A DNA stretch of 41,619 nucleotides from an uncultured Myxococcales bacterium. Its GTDB lineage: Bacteria; Myxococcota_A; UBA9042; DTJE01. The notes below the pieces were generated by a model, which was not told where the DNA came from, did no database searches, and was given only the letters and a program-made list of their open reading frames with translations. Of the stretch, positions 30,049-41,184 are shown in pieces. Position 1 is the stretch's first letter, and every line of letters begins with the position of its first letter. The DNA is taken from assembly GCA_903847405.1 (NCBI GenBank), contig CAINDP010000063.1, forward strand, positions 1 through 41,619. Reading direction: 5' to 3'. A program made the translations under genes and the position numbers.

Positions 30049-32568
30049 ATGAGCGCGACGCAACCGATCCTGCCCGAGATGCGGATCAAGCAGCCCCACG
30101 GACTGTCCCCGCGCATCCAGTGGCTGCGGGACTACTACTTCACCGGCGTGGCCCGGCCCTGGAACAACGAGTTCCAGTGCTTCACGACCGGCACGCCCTG
30201 GGACGTGGTCTACGACGAGATTTCGTACTACATCGTCCCGGAGTCGTACGCCTTCTTCCAGCCGTTCCGGTCGTCCGCGCTGCAGGCGGCCCGCCCGATC
30301 GCCGTCCCGAAGGACTTCTGGAGGCTCAGCCTCCCCGAGCGGCGGGCGTGGTTCATCCGCGAGGCCGTGGTCGAACACCTGCCGCAGGAGGTCCTGCCGG
30401 GCGACCTGATCGCCGGAGGCCGGTTCAACATCCTGGCGTCGCGGTGCTGGACGAAGGACGAGGCGAAGCGGCGCGATCGCGAACTGATGGGCCCTGACGG
30501 CGCCCGGGCGGCCGTCAAGGAGTTCCACGACCGGGGTTACGGCAACGCGGGGGCGACCAGCGGGCACCTGATCCCCGATTACGCCCGGGCCCTGCGCCAA
30601 GGGTTCCGCGGCATCCACGAGGACCTGGCGGCGCGCCTGGAGCGCCTGGACGACCGCGAGCGCCGGGGGCCCGCCGGGGCGCAGTTGCGGGCCATGATGA
30701 CGGCCGCCACGATGCCCCGGGATCTGGCGGCGAAGTACGCGTCGAAGTGCCGGGCGCTGGCCGAGGCCGAGGCGGACGCCACCCGCCGCGGGGAACTGCT
30801 GCAGATGGCGGCGAACCTGGACCGCGTGCCCTGGGAGCCCGCCCGCACGTTCTGGGAAGGCGTCCAGGCCGTGTGGCTGACCCACATGCTGGTCCTCAGC
30901 GACGAAAACTACCCGGGCGCCGGCGTGTCGTTCGGCCGCCTGGACCAGTTCCTGCTGCCCCTGTGGGTTGCGTCCCTGGCGGAAGGGATGGACCGCGAGT
31001 TCGGCAAGGAACTGCTGCGCTGCCTGTGGGTGCACTGCAACACCGTGTACGACGCGATGATCAAGGTGGGCGGCAACCAGGGCATCACCGCGGGCTTCGG
31101 GCAGTTGATCACGCTGTCCGGCATGGGGCCCGACGGCACCGACGCGACCAACGACCTGACGTGGGCGTTCCTGGACGTCATCGACGAAATGACGCCGATC
31201 CTGGAACCCAAGCCGAACGTCCGTCTGCACCGCGGCTCGCCCGACGCGCTGCTGGACCGTGTCGTGGACATGGTCGCGGGCAGCCAGGGCGCGCCGTTCC
31301 TGCTGAACTTCGACGAGCGGTCGATGGCCGGCATGATGCGCGAAGCCCAGCGGGCCGGCGTCCAGCACCTGATCAACGCGGAAAACGTCTGGGACTATGC
31401 GTCCGTCGGGTGCCTGGAAAACACCATGGTCGGCAACGACCGCTCGGGTACGGTGGACGTGAACCTGAACCTGCTGAAAGCGGTCGAACTGGCCCTGACG
31501 GGGGGATGGGACCTCGCGGAGGCCGTGGACCCGATCACGAACGTGGTCTACGCGAAACGGCGCGAGGGGCCCGACACGGGGGACGCGCGGACGTTCGCGA
31601 CCTTCGAGGACTTCTTCCGGGCGTGGGAGGCCCAGACCCGCTACGTCATTAAGCGGGCGGCGGACCTGTACGAGCGCAGCGAAAGCGTGCGGGCGCGGTT
31701 CAGCCCGACGCCCTACGTGTCGTGCCTGGTGCGGGGCTGCGCCGAGACGGGCCGGGACGTCACGCAGGGCGGGGCCGAACTGTCGTTCGTCACGGTCGAA
31801 GGCGTCACGTTCGCGACGGCGGTGGACTCGCTGCTGGCCGTGAAGGAGCTGGTCTTCGACGCCCGCAAGTGCACGATGGCCGAACTGCGCAAGGCCCTGG
31901 AGGACAACTGGGAAGGGCACGGGACGCTGCAGGCCTGGGCGCGCCACCGGTCGCCGAAGTACGGCCGGGACGACGACGTGGCGGACGCCCTGGCGCAACG
32001 GGTCATGGACGTGTGGGCCGACGAGGTCTGGACGCACCGGACGCGCAGCACGGGCCGGCAGTTCCGGCCCGGGATGCTGTCGTGGAACTACTGGGCCGGC
32101 GACGGGTTCGTGATGGCGGCCAGCCCCGACGGGCGGCCCAAGGGACGCTTCCTGTCCAACGCGATCTGCCCGACCGACGGCGCCGACACGAAGGGGCCGA
32201 CGGCGAACGCCAACTCGGTGGGCAAGGTCCTGGGAGGCAAGGCCCCGGACGGCGGGGGCGACTGGGGCGAATGGCGGAACTCGCTGCCCAACGGCGCCAG
32301 CCACACCATCACGTTCAACCCGTCCCTGCTGCGGGATCCCGAGCACAAGGCCAAGTTCAAGGCGTTCCTGCGCGGCTATGTCGAAAACGGCGGCACGGCG
32401 CTGCAGATCAACGTGCTGGACCCGGACGTCCTGCGGGAGGCCCAGAAGCATCCTGCGGACTACCGGCACCTGCTGGTCCGCGTGACCGGGTACAACGCCT
32501 ATTTCACGGCCGTGGGCCGGGAACTGCAGGACGAAATCATCGCGCGGGAGAGCCATCGTGGGGTCTAG
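30049..32568 (+). CDS. Glycyl radical enzyme of the pyruvate formate-lyase/eliminase superfamily
   Basis: An 839-residue glycyl radical enzyme. The thiyl-radical cysteine is Cys455 in SVGCLENT, with Glu457 in the C-x-E arrangement used by the eliminase branch as a general base. The glycyl radical site is Gly814 in RVTGYNAYFTAVGRELQDEI, at the usual distance from the C-terminus. The length matches dehydratase and C-N, C-S or C-C lyase members. The known branches I recall (choline, glycerol, propanediol, hydroxyproline, isethionate) usually have GCVE rather than GCLE, so I cannot assign a substrate. The radical is destroyed by oxygen. The next gene encodes its activase, starting inside this reading frame (GTG 32558). 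AGG lies 7-8 bases before ATG 30049. Confidence 0.9.
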   Translation: MSATQPILPEMRIKQPHGLSPRIQWLRDYYFTGVARPWNNEFQCFTTGTPWDVVYDEISYYIVPESYAFFQPFRSSALQAARPIAVPKDFWRLSLPERRAWFIREAVVEHLPQEVLPGDLIAGGRFNILASRCWTKDEAKRRDRELMGPDGARAAVKEFHDRGYGNAGATSGHLIPDYARALRQGFRGIHEDLAARLERLDDRERRGPAGAQLRAMMTAATMPRDLAAKYASKCRALAEAEADATRRGELLQMAANLDRVPWEPARTFWEGVQAVWLTHMLVLSDENYPGAGVSFGRLDQFLLPLWVASLAEGMDREFGKELLRCLWVHCNTVYDAMIKVGGNQGITAGFGQLITLSGMGPDGTDATNDLTWAFLDVIDEMTPILEPKPNVRLHRGSPDALLDRVVDMVAGSQGAPFLLNFDERSMAGMMREAQRAGVQHLINAENVWDYASVGCLENTMVGNDRSGTVDVNLNLLKAVELALTGGWDLAEAVDPITNVVYAKRREGPDTGDARTFATFEDFFRAWEAQTRYVIKRAADLYERSESVRARFSPTPYVSCLVRGCAETGRDVTQGGAELSFVTVEGVTFATAVDSLLAVKELVFDARKCTMAELRKALEDNWEGHGTLQAWARHRSPKYGRDDDVADALAQRVMDVWADEVWTHRTRSTGRQFRPGMLSWNYWAGDGFVMAASPDGRPKGRFLSNAICPTDGADTKGPTANANSVGKVLGGKAPDGGGDWGEWRNSLPNGASHTITFNPSLLRDPEHKAKFKAFLRGYVENGGTALQINVLDPDVLREAQKHPADYRHLLVRVTGYNAYFTAVGRELQDEIIARESHRGV

Positions 32569-33578
32569 CCCCGATCAGCAGGAAGGAGAGGCCTCCAGCC
32601 TCCCCGGGAATGTCCCGACCGGCCGCGTCCTGAACCTCCAGCGAATGTCCACCGAGGACGGCCCGGGGATCCGCACGACCGTGTTCCTGAAGGGTTGCCC
32701 CCCTGCGGTGCACCTGGTGCCACAACCCGGAAAGCCTGTCGCCGCGGCCCGAGGTCGTGGTGCACCCCGAGCGATGCATGTCCTGCGGAACCTGCCGGGA
32801 GGTCTGCCCCCACGGCTGCGACCCGGCGCAATGCGAGGCCTGCGGACGCTGCGCCCGGGAGTGCCCGACCGGCGCCCGGGAGGTGCTGGGGACCGACTGG
32901 GACGTTTCGGACCTGCTCCATGAGGTCGCCAAGGACCGGGCGTACTTCGACGCCTCCGGGGGAGGCGTGACGGTATCGGGGGGCGAGCCGACCCTCCAGG
33001 CGCCCTTCGCCGAGGCGTTCCTGACGCGCTGCCGGGACGCCGGGATCCACGGGGCCCTGGACACCTGCGGGGCCTGCGGGCTGGACGTGCTGCTGCGACT
33101 GGCCGGGACGTCGCAACTGGTCCTGTACGACGTGAAGGAAATCGACCCCGAGCGGCACCGGCGGTTCACGGGCCTGGACAACGCGCGGATCCTGGCAAAC
33201 CTGGACGGGCTGGCCCGGTGGGCGGACACCCGGGCCGACCCTCCGGCGCTGTGGGTGCGGACACCCCTGGTCCCCGGCGCCACGGCCACGGCCGAAAACG
33301 TGCGCGGGATCGGCCGGTTCCTGGCGGACCACCTGGGCGCGCGGCTGGTCCGGTGGGAACTGTGCGCGTTCAACAACCTGTGCCGCGAACAATACCGGCG
33401 CCTGGGACGGGAGTGGGACTTTGCCCACGAACCCCTGATGCGCCGCGGGGATCTGGACCGGTTGCTGGCCGCGGCCCGGGGGTCGGGCGTGGACCCGGAC
33501 GCGGTGCGGATCACCGGGGCGGCCCGGATGGACGATGGCGAGGAGGTGCACCATGGAACGCCTGGCACGACTGGATGA
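32558..33578 (+). pseudogene. Glycyl radical enzyme activating protein, disrupted by a +1 frameshift
   Basis: This radical-SAM activase would generate the glycyl radical on the upstream enzyme. It starts at GTG 32558, overlapping that gene, behind GGGAG. The N-terminal frame reads RMSTEDGPGIRTTVFLKGC and then hits a run of six C (32698-32703). With five C the frame would continue P-L-R-C-T-W-C-H-N-P-E-S, completing the CxxxCxxC cluster motif. With six it leaves the frame and stops near 32923. The rest is intact in the +1 frame: a ferredoxin insert (CMSCGTCREVC and CEACGRCARECPTGA), VTVSGGEPTLQ, and LVLYDVKEIDPERHRRFTG. The corrected length is about 339 residues. It may be a sequencing error in a homopolymer, a recent mutation, or polymerase/ribosome slippage. 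Confidence 0.88.
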
Positions 33579-36912: not shown

Positions 36913-36980
36913 ACTGTCATATTGTCCACTGCGAATGCGGCCTTTGACGGCCTCCCGAAAGGCGCGCGGCACCCCTCCCC

Positions 36981-37009
36981 TTGACTTTGAATGAATTCAC
37001 CGGCACATT
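36981..37009 (+). promoter_or_regulatory. Possible promoter for the KOW-repeat protein
   Basis: TTGACT (36981-36986), a 17-base spacer, and CACATT (37004-37009), about 50 bases before ATG 37061. The region is locally AT-rich. Confidence 0.4.
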
Positions 37010-37015
37010 CGGCTT

Positions 37016-37034
37016 GTTGCGCACCATGCGCAAC
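37016..37034. promoter_or_regulatory. Perfect inverted repeat in the leader of the KOW-repeat gene
   Basis: GTTGCGCA (37016-37023), three bases, TGCGCAAC (37027-37034). The 8-bp perfect dyad lies just downstream of the predicted -10, where it could be a repressor operator or a 5'-leader hairpin. Confidence 0.55.
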
Positions 37035-37060
37035 GCAGGCACACCACACCGAGGGACAAC

Positions 37061-38365
37061 ATGGCGAAGGATACCCGTCAGGTACTGGCAGACGAATTGC
37101 GCAGGATTCTTGAGGAATTCCGCCGCCTGGAAGACCAGGTGGAGCACATTGCGGCGGAACGGAAGCGCCTCGGGACGATTGCACAGCGGCTGCTGCAGAT
37201 CCTGCGGGCGCAGGCGCCCCGTGGCGTGGATCGCCTGATCGAGGACATGGGGCTGGCCGATACCATCGCCCTTCTTCCGGGCGTCCCGGGGCGCAAGCCC
37301 GCCGCGGGTGGGGCACGGAAGGCGAAGGGTGCGCCGCGCGTGGCGAAGGCGGCCGCCGTTGCCGAGGCCAAGGCTTTGGTCGCGGACAAGAAGGCCGTGG
37401 TCGCCCCGACGCCTCTTCCCAAGGGCTCGCCGGTGCGCATGCTTACCGGAAAGTACAAGGGCTGGGCGGGTACCATCCGCTGGATCACGGTGAAGGGCGC
37501 CACGGTGTCCTACACGGTGGATCTGAATGGTCGCAACGGCCAGAAGGGCCGGAACCAGGTCCGTCACGGCAGCGAAGGGTCCACCTGGGAACTGCTGCCT
37601 GCCGGAACCCCGGCCCCGGTCGCAGCCACCGAAACCAAGGTTCGGGCGCCGAAGCGCGGCGCCGCGGACAAGGCGAAGACGGTTGCCGCGCGTCCGGCGA
37701 AGACGGCCGCTGCGCCTGTATCGACCGAGGTCCTGCCCAAGGGGACGAACGTGCGCCTGCTGAAGGGCAAGTTCCAGGGCGGCACCGGCGTCATCGGCTG
37801 GACCAGCGTGAAGGGTTCGACGGTGACCTACACGATCTACCTGCCGGGAACCGGAAGGAAGCGGGACCGCACGCAGGTCAACCAGGGCAGCCTGGGCAGG
37901 TCCTGGGAACTGGTCAGCGGGCCCGCGCCCGTCGCCCCGAAGGCGGCGCCTGCCGGCAAGAAGGCCCCCCGGAAGGTTGCGGCGGCCCGGACGGTCACGA
38001 AGGCGGTCGCCGCTCCCGTCGCCCCGAAGCCGGCGCCCGACCGCGTGGACGCCCCGAAGACGGTTCGTCGCCGCCGATCGGTCGAGGCGACCGTCGTGAC
38101 GCCCGAGGCCCCGAAGGAAACCGCACCGGTCCCGGTCGCGCCCGCGTCGTCCCTCCCGGCCACCATCCTGCCCAAGGGCACCCCGGTCCGGATGATCACG
38201 GGAATCTACCTGGGGTACGTCGGGGTCATCGCGTCGGTCCAGCCGATTCCCGGCCCCAAGCCGGACGCCGTCTACACGCTGGTCCTGAAGGGCGCGGGCG
38301 GCAAGAAGGGGCGCACGTCGGTCAAGCACGGGTCCCTGGGAAGGACCTGGGCCAAGGTCAACTGA
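37061..38365 (+). CDS. Three-repeat KOW-like protein with basic Ala/Lys/Pro linkers
   Basis: A 434-residue protein of unusual design. Residues 1-60 are a charged coiled coil (LRRILEEFRRLEDQVEHIAA). Three related modules of about 60 residues follow at 119-178, 225-285 and 370-434. Each opens with LPKG and a V-R-hydrophobic turn, then G-x-x-G-x-x-G, an aromatic-rich strand, and ends in a V-x-x-G-S-x-G-x-x-W sequence. The opening K-G-x-x-V-R-x-x-x-G-x-x-x-G resembles a KOW motif. The linkers (60-118, 179-224, 286-369) are rich in Lys, Ala, Pro and Arg, like histone H1 tails. Nucleic-acid or ribosome binding is therefore likely. I know no family with this arrangement. It has its own upstream dyad and promoter-like element. 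Confidence 0.78.
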   Translation: MAKDTRQVLADELRRILEEFRRLEDQVEHIAAERKRLGTIAQRLLQILRAQAPRGVDRLIEDMGLADTIALLPGVPGRKPAAGGARKAKGAPRVAKAAAVAEAKALVADKKAVVAPTPLPKGSPVRMLTGKYKGWAGTIRWITVKGATVSYTVDLNGRNGQKGRNQVRHGSEGSTWELLPAGTPAPVAATETKVRAPKRGAADKAKTVAARPAKTAAAPVSTEVLPKGTNVRLLKGKFQGGTGVIGWTSVKGSTVTYTIYLPGTGRKRDRTQVNQGSLGRSWELVSGPAPVAPKAAPAGKKAPRKVAAARTVTKAVAAPVAPKPAPDRVDAPKTVRRRRSVEATVVTPEAPKETAPVPVAPASSLPATILPKGTPVRMITGIYLGYVGVIASVQPIPGPKPDAVYTLVLKGAGGKKGRTSVKHGSLGRTWAKVN

Positions 38366-38439: not shown

Positions 38440-41184
38440 TCAGCGGACGTCCTTGCCGCCGGCAGGCACGCCCGGGCACGCCGAGCCCTCGGCCGGCCGG
38501 ATCCGGTCGGCCAGGCCCAGGCCCGTCAGGTATTCCAGCAGGCGCGCCTGATCGTCCGCGGACCAACCAGTGGCGGCGATGGCGTCCTTTTCGGCCTCCG
38601 TCAGGCGTTCGCTGGGCAGTTCGCCGGTGGGCACCAGCGGAAAGCGGTCCCGTCCCGAAAAGACCGACAGGCCCAGGAACGGGTTTTCGACGTCCAGGTC
38701 CAGGATGTCGAGGACCGAGGGCAGCATGTCCAACTGGGACACGAGCCCCTCCTTTTTGACGCCGCGCAGGCGCGTGTCCCCGGGGATGTGGATCATCCCG
38801 GCGAGGTAGTCGAACTGCGACAGCCGACGGCCCCCGTCCGCGCGCCGGAAGGCGCGGGTGACCAGGGCGTGGTCCGCGACGACGACCAGCAAGGTGTTCT
38901 GGAAGTACGGGGAGTTCTTGAAGTAGTCCCAGAAGACGCCGAAGGCCACGTCCGCCGAGTAGATCGAGTCGAGCAGCGAGTTCCCGCCGGCCGCGGGGTG
39001 GTGCCGCAGGGTCGCGTACGGGAAGTGTGTGTCGGTGGTCGCGATGGTCAGCAGGAACGGCTGCGGCAGTTCGCCCTTCTGCAGCATGCCGACCACGGCG
39101 CCGTACAGATCCTCGTCGAACACGCCCCAGGTCTTCACCAGCCCGTTCTTGGCATAGGCCAGGATTTCCGCATCCTCGGCCGTCAGGACCTTGTCGTAGT
39201 GGTGGCGCAGGAACACGCCTGCGGTCCCGGCGAAGGTCCCGTAGTCCGACTGGGCGAACACCGTCGTGTAGTTGCGCTGGACCTTCAGGATGTCGGACAG
39301 CAGCAGGAACCGGGACTTGACCACCTTCGCGATGTCGCCGGACGTGACCTCGCCGCCCCGGCCGAACATGAACGAGCCCAGGTCGGCGATTTCGCCCCGG
39401 AGAGTCGGGAACTCGGAACTCCACAACTTGCCCAGGCTGAAGCTTTCCTTTTCGAAGGCGTGGAAATTCTTCGTCAGGCCCGGCACGCCCTGGGCCTCGT
39501 CGTCCAGCAGGCCGGACGACAGCGATTCGACGATCAGGTAGATGACGTTGGTCCCCGGCGGCACGCGCGGCAGGTCCACGGCCCGGTCCGAGGGCGCCAG
39601 GTAGATGCTGGGCTTCACCAGCGGGTATTCCGGATCGCACGACTGCAGGCGGACGCCCATGGTCTGTTCCAGGCGGCCCAGGTAGTCCGCGTCGAGGGGC
39701 GCTGGAGGCGTCGGCGGGGCACGGAAGAGGCTGCGGACCAGCGGCTCGATCATCTTGAATTCGGGGACGCCCCCGAACGCCTCGAAGATGCTGCCGCTGA
39801 TGTCGCGGCTGGACGGCTGCCAGAAGGTCAGCGTCGCGCGGTGGACCAGCGTCACGCCGACGAAGGCGACCACGGCGTTCAGCAGCAGGACGGCCTTCAG
39901 CCACCGGACGCCGGGACGGGCGGACGGGCGATCGATGGATCGGGCGAACCGGTCCGCCAGCCACAGCAGGAGCCCCACGAGGACCAGTTCGGCGGCCAGC
40001 GTCCCGAACACCCACACGGCCCACTCGGAGGTCAGGAGCGTGGCGTTCTGGCGATAGAAGGCGTGGTACCAGAACTCCTCGTCGGCGTGGGCGGAGGTCT
40101 GGTAGAAGGTCCCCCAGTCCAGGCGGCGCAGGGACGCCGAGATCAGGATGGACACGGACACCACGATCCAGACCGCCCGAGGCGCACGCCCCAGGCGCCG
40201 GGCCCGGCATACGGCGAGGTGGATCGCCATCGCCACCAGCAGCGCCAGCGAGAAGTAGAGGGCGGTGAGCGGCAGCAGGACCTCGCTGAAATCGGCGGGG
40301 GCGAAGTTGAAGGTGCGGATGAGGCTTTCGTGCCACAGCAGCCAGATCGAGCACAGGGTGGCGGTCATGACGGCAGGCGAGAACAGGGCGATCACGCGCC
40401 CCCGGAATCCCCCCTCGCGCAGGGCGGGGGTCCATCCTTCCTTGAAGGCCGGTTTCACGAAACCCAGGACGGCCGCGGCGGGAATGGCCAGCAGCACGGC
40501 GTAGCGGCCGAATGCGACGGGCAGCAGCGGGACCAGGGCCAGCGCCCCCAGATCGAAGAGGACGACCCGCCGCCGCGCCCCGGGCAGGCGCACCCGACGT
40601 GCGTCCCGCCACGCGACGATCAGCCCCAGGACCAGCCCGATCAGCGTCAGCACCCACCCGTACCGCTCGAACACACCGGGCCACGACACGGTGATCGACT
40701 TGTTCGGGTCCCGGCTGGCGAATACCACCGGACCTTCGGGCCCGTCCTCGCGCAGTTCAATCCCTGCCTCGAAGCCGTCGTACTGCCACTTCGGCAGCAG
40801 GCTGACGAAGCGCCCGTGCCGGACCACGGGCCAGAACGGGACCAGCGTTTCCATCTGGAATTCGGCGCGGCTTCCGCCCTCCAGGGGCAGCGTTTCGACG
40901 CGGCTGACGATGTCCTGGCCGTCCCGGGTCACCGAAATCCGCAGGTGCATGGCCCGCGCCGTGTCCGACGGGGTCTTGCGCCGGACCGCCAGGTCGAACT
41001 GGTCGGCCCAGGGGTTCAAGGTTTCCAGGGACCCCGGCGGCAGGTAGACCAGGTAGTTCGGGTCCAGAGTGTCGCTGGCTTCCTCCCCCCCGACGACGGG
41101 GGTGGACGCCACGAGGGCGAATCCCGCCAGCGCGATCGTCAGGCAGACGCGGGCGAAGGAGGGGCGGTATGCGAGTTCTTTCAT
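38440..41184 (-). CDS. LTA-synthase-like membrane phosphoglycerol transferase / sulfatase-family protein
   Basis: A 914-residue membrane enzyme. Residues 1-33 are a signal peptide (LTIALAGFALVASTPVVGGE), and residues 35-170 form an extracytoplasmic beta-like domain. Eight or so membrane segments follow between about 175 and 460, for example WVLTLIGLVLGLIVAW. The last 400 residues are an alkaline-phosphatase-fold sulfatase domain with NVIYLIVESLSSG, FPTLRGE (probable nucleophile Thr), IATTDTHFPY and VVVADHAL. This resembles lipoteichoic-acid synthase and OpgB-type phosphoglycerol transferases, which move phosphoglycerol from lipids to glycans outside the cytosol. The N-terminal ectodomain before the membrane segments is unusual. 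A promoter lies upstream. The ribosome binding site is weak. Confidence 0.82.
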   Translation of the reverse strand: MKELAYRPSFARVCLTIALAGFALVASTPVVGGEEASDTLDPNYLVYLPPGSLETLNPWADQFDLAVRRKTPSDTARAMHLRISVTRDGQDIVSRVETLPLEGGSRAEFQMETLVPFWPVVRHGRFVSLLPKWQYDGFEAGIELREDGPEGPVVFASRDPNKSITVSWPGVFERYGWVLTLIGLVLGLIVAWRDARRVRLPGARRRVVLFDLGALALVPLLPVAFGRYAVLLAIPAAAVLGFVKPAFKEGWTPALREGGFRGRVIALFSPAVMTATLCSIWLLWHESLIRTFNFAPADFSEVLLPLTALYFSLALLVAMAIHLAVCRARRLGRAPRAVWIVVSVSILISASLRRLDWGTFYQTSAHADEEFWYHAFYRQNATLLTSEWAVWVFGTLAAELVLVGLLLWLADRFARSIDRPSARPGVRWLKAVLLLNAVVAFVGVTLVHRATLTFWQPSSRDISGSIFEAFGGVPEFKMIEPLVRSLFRAPPTPPAPLDADYLGRLEQTMGVRLQSCDPEYPLVKPSIYLAPSDRAVDLPRVPPGTNVIYLIVESLSSGLLDDEAQGVPGLTKNFHAFEKESFSLGKLWSSEFPTLRGEIADLGSFMFGRGGEVTSGDIAKVVKSRFLLLSDILKVQRNYTTVFAQSDYGTFAGTAGVFLRHHYDKVLTAEDAEILAYAKNGLVKTWGVFDEDLYGAVVGMLQKGELPQPFLLTIATTDTHFPYATLRHHPAAGGNSLLDSIYSADVAFGVFWDYFKNSPYFQNTLLVVVADHALVTRAFRRADGGRRLSQFDYLAGMIHIPGDTRLRGVKKEGLVSQLDMLPSVLDILDLDVENPFLGLSVFSGRDRFPLVPTGELPSERLTEAEKDAIAATGWSADDQARLLEYLTGLGLADRIRPAEGSACPGVPAGGKDVR

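Follow-up and report, generated by a model that had tools for sequence, protein, structure and literature searches.

A Myxococcota protein with three KOW-type modules, predicted to fold as SH3-like barrels, behind an N-terminal helix

KOW barrels are small domains of transcription and ribosome proteins and frequently contact DNA or RNA. In the literature and family libraries searched, chains with several KOW domains are of the eukaryotic Spt5 type. In human Spt5, KOW4 binds nucleic acid with a preference for single-stranded RNA, and KOW6-7 bound no nucleic acid (PMC6076269), so that a KOW domain can be protein-binding only. The partners of the NusG KOW domain are proteins, and it binds Rho and the ribosome (PMC7819879). 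MotB of phage T4 combines a predicted KOW domain with an OB fold; its DNA binding is non-specific, and it changes the binding of H-NS (PMC7827196).

The window, which is the whole stretch of 41,619 nucleotides that was analysed, belongs to a freshwater Myxococcota metagenome-assembled genome (G000; 5.65 Mb, 97% complete). As read from the window sequence, it holds an intact ORF on the + strand (37061-38365) with an ATG start, encoding a protein of 434 aa and pI 11. No family in Pfam, NCBIfam or PADLOC covers this protein at curated score, and the open-access literature searched on bacterial multi-KOW or SWIM/SNF2/DUF3670 proteins contained no paper with its plan; an earlier reading made from the letters alone (the sequence-only reading), which knew of no described protein of this kind, is borne out by the Pfam/NCBIfam and literature searches. 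The features of the locus are as follows.

37051..37055, + strand: probable ribosome-binding site GAGGG, 5 bases 5' of the ATG, read directly
37061..38365, + strand: gene of the 434-aa protein, a predicted coiled-coil triple-KOW protein (G001 orthologue, dN/dS)
37064..37213, + strand: predicted N-terminal long helix, aa 2-51 (AlphaFold pLDDT 90-95; heptad-like hydrophobic period)
37226..37270, + strand: two short predicted helices, aa 56-62 and 66-70 (AlphaFold)
37286..37414, + strand: linker 1, aa 76-118, disordered and Ala/Lys-rich (pLDDT about 42-48)
37415..37594, + strand: KOW module 1, aa 119-178 (alignment, HMM, AlphaFold; dN/dS 0.13)
37595..37729, + strand: linker 2, aa 179-223, disordered (AlphaFold, composition)
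37730..37912, + strand: KOW module 2, aa 224-284 (alignment, HMM, AlphaFold; dN/dS 0.09)
37913..38164, + strand: linker 3, aa 285-368, disordered, carrying a TVRRRR motif
38165..38353, + strand: KOW module 3, aa 369-431 (alignment, HMM, AlphaFold; groups with the modules of one-module paralogues)

A genome of the same genus (G001, the CAIOFV01 MAG) has an orthologue with 65-72% identity to the window protein, the sole match in a scan of genome contigs. Between G000 and G001, dN/dS is 0.33 over the whole gene, 0.27 in module 3 (modules 1 and 2 are lower, as listed), 0.34 in the N-terminal helix and 0.51 in the linkers, which are the fastest-evolving part. Therefore, purifying selection on 37061-38365 marks a real protein, of which the modules are the constrained part. 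The codon-position GC of the + strand in this interval is 0.68/0.56/0.86. A long antisense ORF (36917-38329) was rejected as the true gene since this GC pattern and the purifying selection belong to the + strand; it is most likely an artefact of high GC. A promoter and terminator scan around the gene gave only chance-level signals.

The sequence-only reading had proposed three modules of about 60 residues that start with LPKG, and both the length and the start were correct. The ending that it gave for them, V-x-x-G-S-x-G-x-x-W, is present exactly in all three window modules; among 35 modules from relatives, the strict form holds in 10 and a relaxed form in 30. Modules 1-3 share 21 invariant columns, have a mutual identity of 45-50% and are of common ancestry. 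The module HMM finds them with E-values of 1e-26 to 1e-29; because they are themselves members of this HMM, the independent support comes from their mutual identity and from the relatives. A profile search of the host genome at E 0.1 returned these three copies only, and the modules therefore form a subfamily distinct from the genome's ordinary KOW proteins, which the profile did not match. Two KOW-core glycines and the final Trp are invariant across the 35 modules, K or R occupies two positions in 97% and 86% of the rows, and the net charge is positive in every module (35/35, median +7).

When the module profile was compared with the PDB, SPT5 came out on top (6.9e-7 for the entire chain, with individual SPT5 domains weaker), followed by the NusG KOW domain (0.0026) and uL24 (0.007); eL27 was also among the neighbours in the PDB profile and Foldseek comparisons. 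All Pfam matches were weak: of 27 modules, 12 had KOW as their best match (E 0.0004 at best) and six matched SPT5 KOW5, and on the window protein itself Pfam KOW reached 16.1 bits against a curated cut-off of 22.3. The KOW core V-x-V-x-x-G-x-x-x-G-x-x-G is recognisable, its three glycines being 91-100% conserved. From 35 module sequences, AlphaFold predicted a five-stranded barrel (pLDDT 94.2, pTM 0.82) with strands at 12-15, 24-32, 40-47, 53-59 and 67-69, and Foldseek matched this model to NusG, eS4 and uL24 in the PDB with a probability of 0.97-1.00. The best Foldseek E-value (0.015, with TM-scores of 0.4-0.65) is modest because the domain is small. The agreement of profile and predicted structure supports the modules as KOW-type SH3-like barrels, as the sequence-only reading had suggested. 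The NusG model reached 17 bits, with a cut-off of 136, and the UpxY model 23 bits, with a cut-off of 100; the S4e model matched in its KOW part alone, with 11 of 214 bits. An NGN domain had no Pfam match even at E 10, the N-terminus being one long helix in the AlphaFold model.

In the full-length AlphaFold model, built with 15 sequences, the helix (2-51) and the two short helices precede three barrels, which are joined by linkers with a pLDDT of about 45. Along the helix, hydrophobicity has its strongest period at 104 degrees per residue, close to the 103 of a heptad coiled coil, and the coiled coil claimed earlier for the N-terminus is thus upheld as a prediction. The N-termini of the window protein and of its G001 and G007 counterparts match that of the one-module paralogues with HMM E-values of 2e-8 to 4e-11 (shuffled controls at 0.08 or worse), and the match is not significant for G005 and G011. 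By sequence comparison, the N-terminal helix is homologous between the window protein and the one-module paralogues.

Module matches were found in 11 of the 13 genomes of the host's Myxococcota family, in none of 39 other genomes of the class searched, and in two more among 379 drawn from the phylum; plasmid and phage collections gave no protein match. Judged from the phylum genomes sampled, the family appears restricted to Myxococcota, a statement only as good as that sampling. It comes in four architectures, besides two short G002 proteins. The helix with three modules occurs in G000, G001, G005, G007 (two) and G011, while the helix with one module, in proteins of about 170 aa, occurs in G001, G002, G004, G006, G007, G008, G009 and G012, some of which have two copies. 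A SWIM zinc-finger protein carries one or two modules at or near its C-terminus in G007, G009, G185 and G268, which belong to two Myxococcota families. In G002, an RNA-polymerase alpha-CTD-like domain (alpha-CTD E 1.7e-10) is fused to a module. This fusion (L023:646-1974) lies near a small XRE-like regulator gene at locus L076 (G002:C77, 23000-41000), possibly on a mobile element. Two short proteins of the same genome (L018 and L021, on G002:C5 and G002:C77) also end in a module, behind a different N-terminal helix (VDVPA...RIPGG), and one of them has AAKPV repeats. In a module tree of 64 columns, weakly resolved, the third modules of the triples and those of the one-module paralogues form one group (95/87), to which modules 1 and 2 and the SWIM modules do not belong. 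This is consistent with an ancient triple arrangement that would end in a module of the paralogue type.

The window gene is flanked by glucose-6-phosphate isomerase-like and sulfatase genes and lies outside the ribosomal-operon context expected of uL24 or eS4. The triple-module gene has common neighbours within the genus only. Since contexts differ between genera and the upstream isomerase-like gene is missing from that place in G001, no partner is assigned to the window gene. The convergent sulfatase-domain protein (38440-41184, - strand, 914 aa) has a predicted-membrane-like N-terminal part and resembles lipoteichoic-acid synthase by appearance only. Elsewhere in the window (30049-33578, + strand), a glycyl-radical enzyme-like gene precedes one that is activating-enzyme-like and has ferredoxin-type cysteines, a pair that also adjoins the locus in G001 (L061).

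Each of the four SWIM genes, at L080 (G009:C268), L079 (G007:C5), L082 (G268) and L083 (G185), directly follows an SNF2/DUF3670 helicase gene of the same strand, with a gap of a few bases. These helicase genes are of the SCO1167/SCO6262 type. In PADLOC, the SNF2 partner matches many SNF2 defence helicases, which is a generic signal, and the window protein has no defence family. The host genome has no SWIM match; therefore, the SWIM/SNF2 link rests on module homology and not on linkage of the window gene. The one-module paralogue has an NFACT/RqcH-like gene as a close convergent neighbour in all eight checkable loci (8/8). Because this neighbour is convergent, with a transporter sometimes in between, the arrangement is one of synteny and not an operon. 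Genes for an injection-system baseplate and a Cys/Met PLP enzyme are also found near the one-module loci (L066, L067, L068, L069, L070, L071, L072, L075), many of which are close to contractile-injection-system baseplate genes (TIGR02243, CIS13-like, and Tail_P2_I with PASTA).

The explanation favoured here, to which we give an even chance, is that the window protein is a stand-alone, multivalent KOW accessory factor with DNA or the transcription machinery as its target. By prediction, the N-terminal helix would most likely dimerise or oligomerise the protein; through three basic KOW barrels per chain on flexible Ala/Pro/Lys spacers, it could then touch nucleic acid and/or RNA polymerase at six or more weak contact points, and the assembled protein may bridge or coat its target by avidity. 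In this way we infer nucleic-acid binding, oligomerisation and a DNA or transcription target. The sequence-only reading had considered a nucleoid- or a ribosome-associated role. A DNA or transcription target is favoured because the module is recurrently fused to SWIM proteins, next to SNF2, and to an alpha-CTD domain. The net positive charge of all modules and their conserved K/R positions are counted for a nucleic-acid or DNA reading, although the charge alone would fit RNA or ribosome binding too. The helix shared by one- and three-module proteins is likewise counted in favour, with Spt5 KOW4 and MotB as precedents. Counted against a DNA or transcription role are the KOW domains that bind proteins only, the lack of conserved neighbours of the triple-module gene beyond the genus and the fact that the SWIM/SNF2 link is one of homology. 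A pull-down in Bacillus subtilis recovered the RapA homologue YwqA together with PcrA and RNA polymerase (PMC3797733); by analogy, this case shows only that RNA polymerase can have an SNF2 protein of this broad class in its vicinity. A bolder form of this explanation, which we consider distinctly improbable, is that one Myxococcota family spread a KOW subfamily over self-assembling coiled-coil proteins, a SWIM/SNF2 remodeller pair and an alpha-CTD-like protein as a lineage-specific chromatin or transcription module, in which the triple-KOW protein would be the scaffold of a new system that coats DNA or acts in elongation and uses several KOW domains in the manner of Spt5.

A different target is conceivable, since uL24, eS4 and eL27 are among the fold and sequence neighbours of the module, and the barrels might dock on rRNA as uL24, eS4 or OapB do, perhaps in ribosome rescue or assembly. 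The bacterial OapB, a KOW protein of 11 kDa, binds an RNA tightly (PMC9723947), and the NFACT/RqcH-like gene beside the one-module paralogue points weakly in the same direction. However, that neighbourhood is synteny, the window gene lies elsewhere, the other neighbours there (baseplate genes, PLP enzyme) share no common theme, and the fusion partners of the module are DNA or transcription domains; a ribosome- or RNA-associated factor is considered doubtful. It is less probable again, and in our view unlikely, that peptides or partner proteins are what the barrels bind and that the protein is an interaction hub rather than a nucleic-acid binder. The protein partners of NusG-KOW (NusE, Rho; PMC7819879) and the behaviour of Spt5 KOW6-7 (PMC6076269) offer precedents, and a peptide groove could be built from the invariant Trp and the conserved aromatic positions; yet the Trp may simply be part of the core, every module is highly net positive, and the triple-module gene has no conserved adjoining partner gene.

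The accessory-factor explanation treats the segments between the barrels as spacers, whereas the sequence-only reading saw in them a histone-like tail. A compactor of the nucleoid similar to histone H1, with Lys/Ala/Pro segments as the functional DNA-binding part, would agree with the pI of the window protein, with the Ala/Pro-rich and basic linkers of the window and G001 proteins (4-14% lysine) and with the AlgP-type H1-like proteins known in bacteria (PMC9239181). In the window the linkers have 8-11% K, 6-13% D+E and a net charge of +5 to +10, so that they are rich in Ala and Pro with a moderate share of lysine, and 'H1-like' is too strong a term for them. The same linkers are the fastest-evolving part, their length varies by tens of residues between relatives, lysine falls to 0-2% in G007, and the net charge of linker 3 is negative in G005 and G011 (-5 and -9). 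The one-module paralogues, in which the TVRRRR motif of linker 3 also precedes the barrel, have a far shorter basic stretch, and Pfam gave no histone-like match to the window protein even at E 10. A conserved tail of the H1/Hc1/AlgP type was thus rejected, the claim of an H1-like tail did not hold, and H1-like compaction appears very improbable. Since they vary in length, lose lysines and can be acidic, the linkers look like spacers, and from these comparisons they are best read as flexible ones with basic patches in some species.

If the family indeed repeats a KOW barrel behind a self-assembling helix and has the barrel in common with SWIM/SNF2 and alpha-CTD-like proteins, it would offer a simple case in which to test the multivalent action of KOW proteins on DNA, RNA or RNA polymerase, and proteins that at present lack any family assignment would gain a name and a likely role. 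Overall, SPT5/DSIF, the best profile match, is similar in having several KOW barrels per chain, but the window protein is bacterial, showed no NGN domain in any search, has an N-terminal coiled coil by prediction and carries three near-identical modules on disordered linkers. The C-terminal KOW domain of NusG/UpxY shares the KOW core and the five-stranded barrel, again with an NGN domain that the window protein lacks. OapB (YbzG) of Firmicutes is likewise a stand-alone bacterial KOW protein, although it is a single short domain without a coiled coil and its RNA target is known (PMC9723947). T4 MotB is comparable by description, in its predicted KOW domain, non-specific DNA binding and link to a nucleoid protein (PMC7827196), but it has one KOW with an OB fold and is phage-encoded. 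AlgP and other H1-like proteins also have Ala/Pro/Lys-rich segments (PMC9239181), which in the window protein are variable linkers between folded domains. In the pairs of SWIM and SNF2/DUF3670 genes, the SWIM protein carries the same module at four related loci, whereas the window gene encodes a separate protein without SWIM. What appears to be new is the architecture and the subfamily; the KOW domain itself is old and known.
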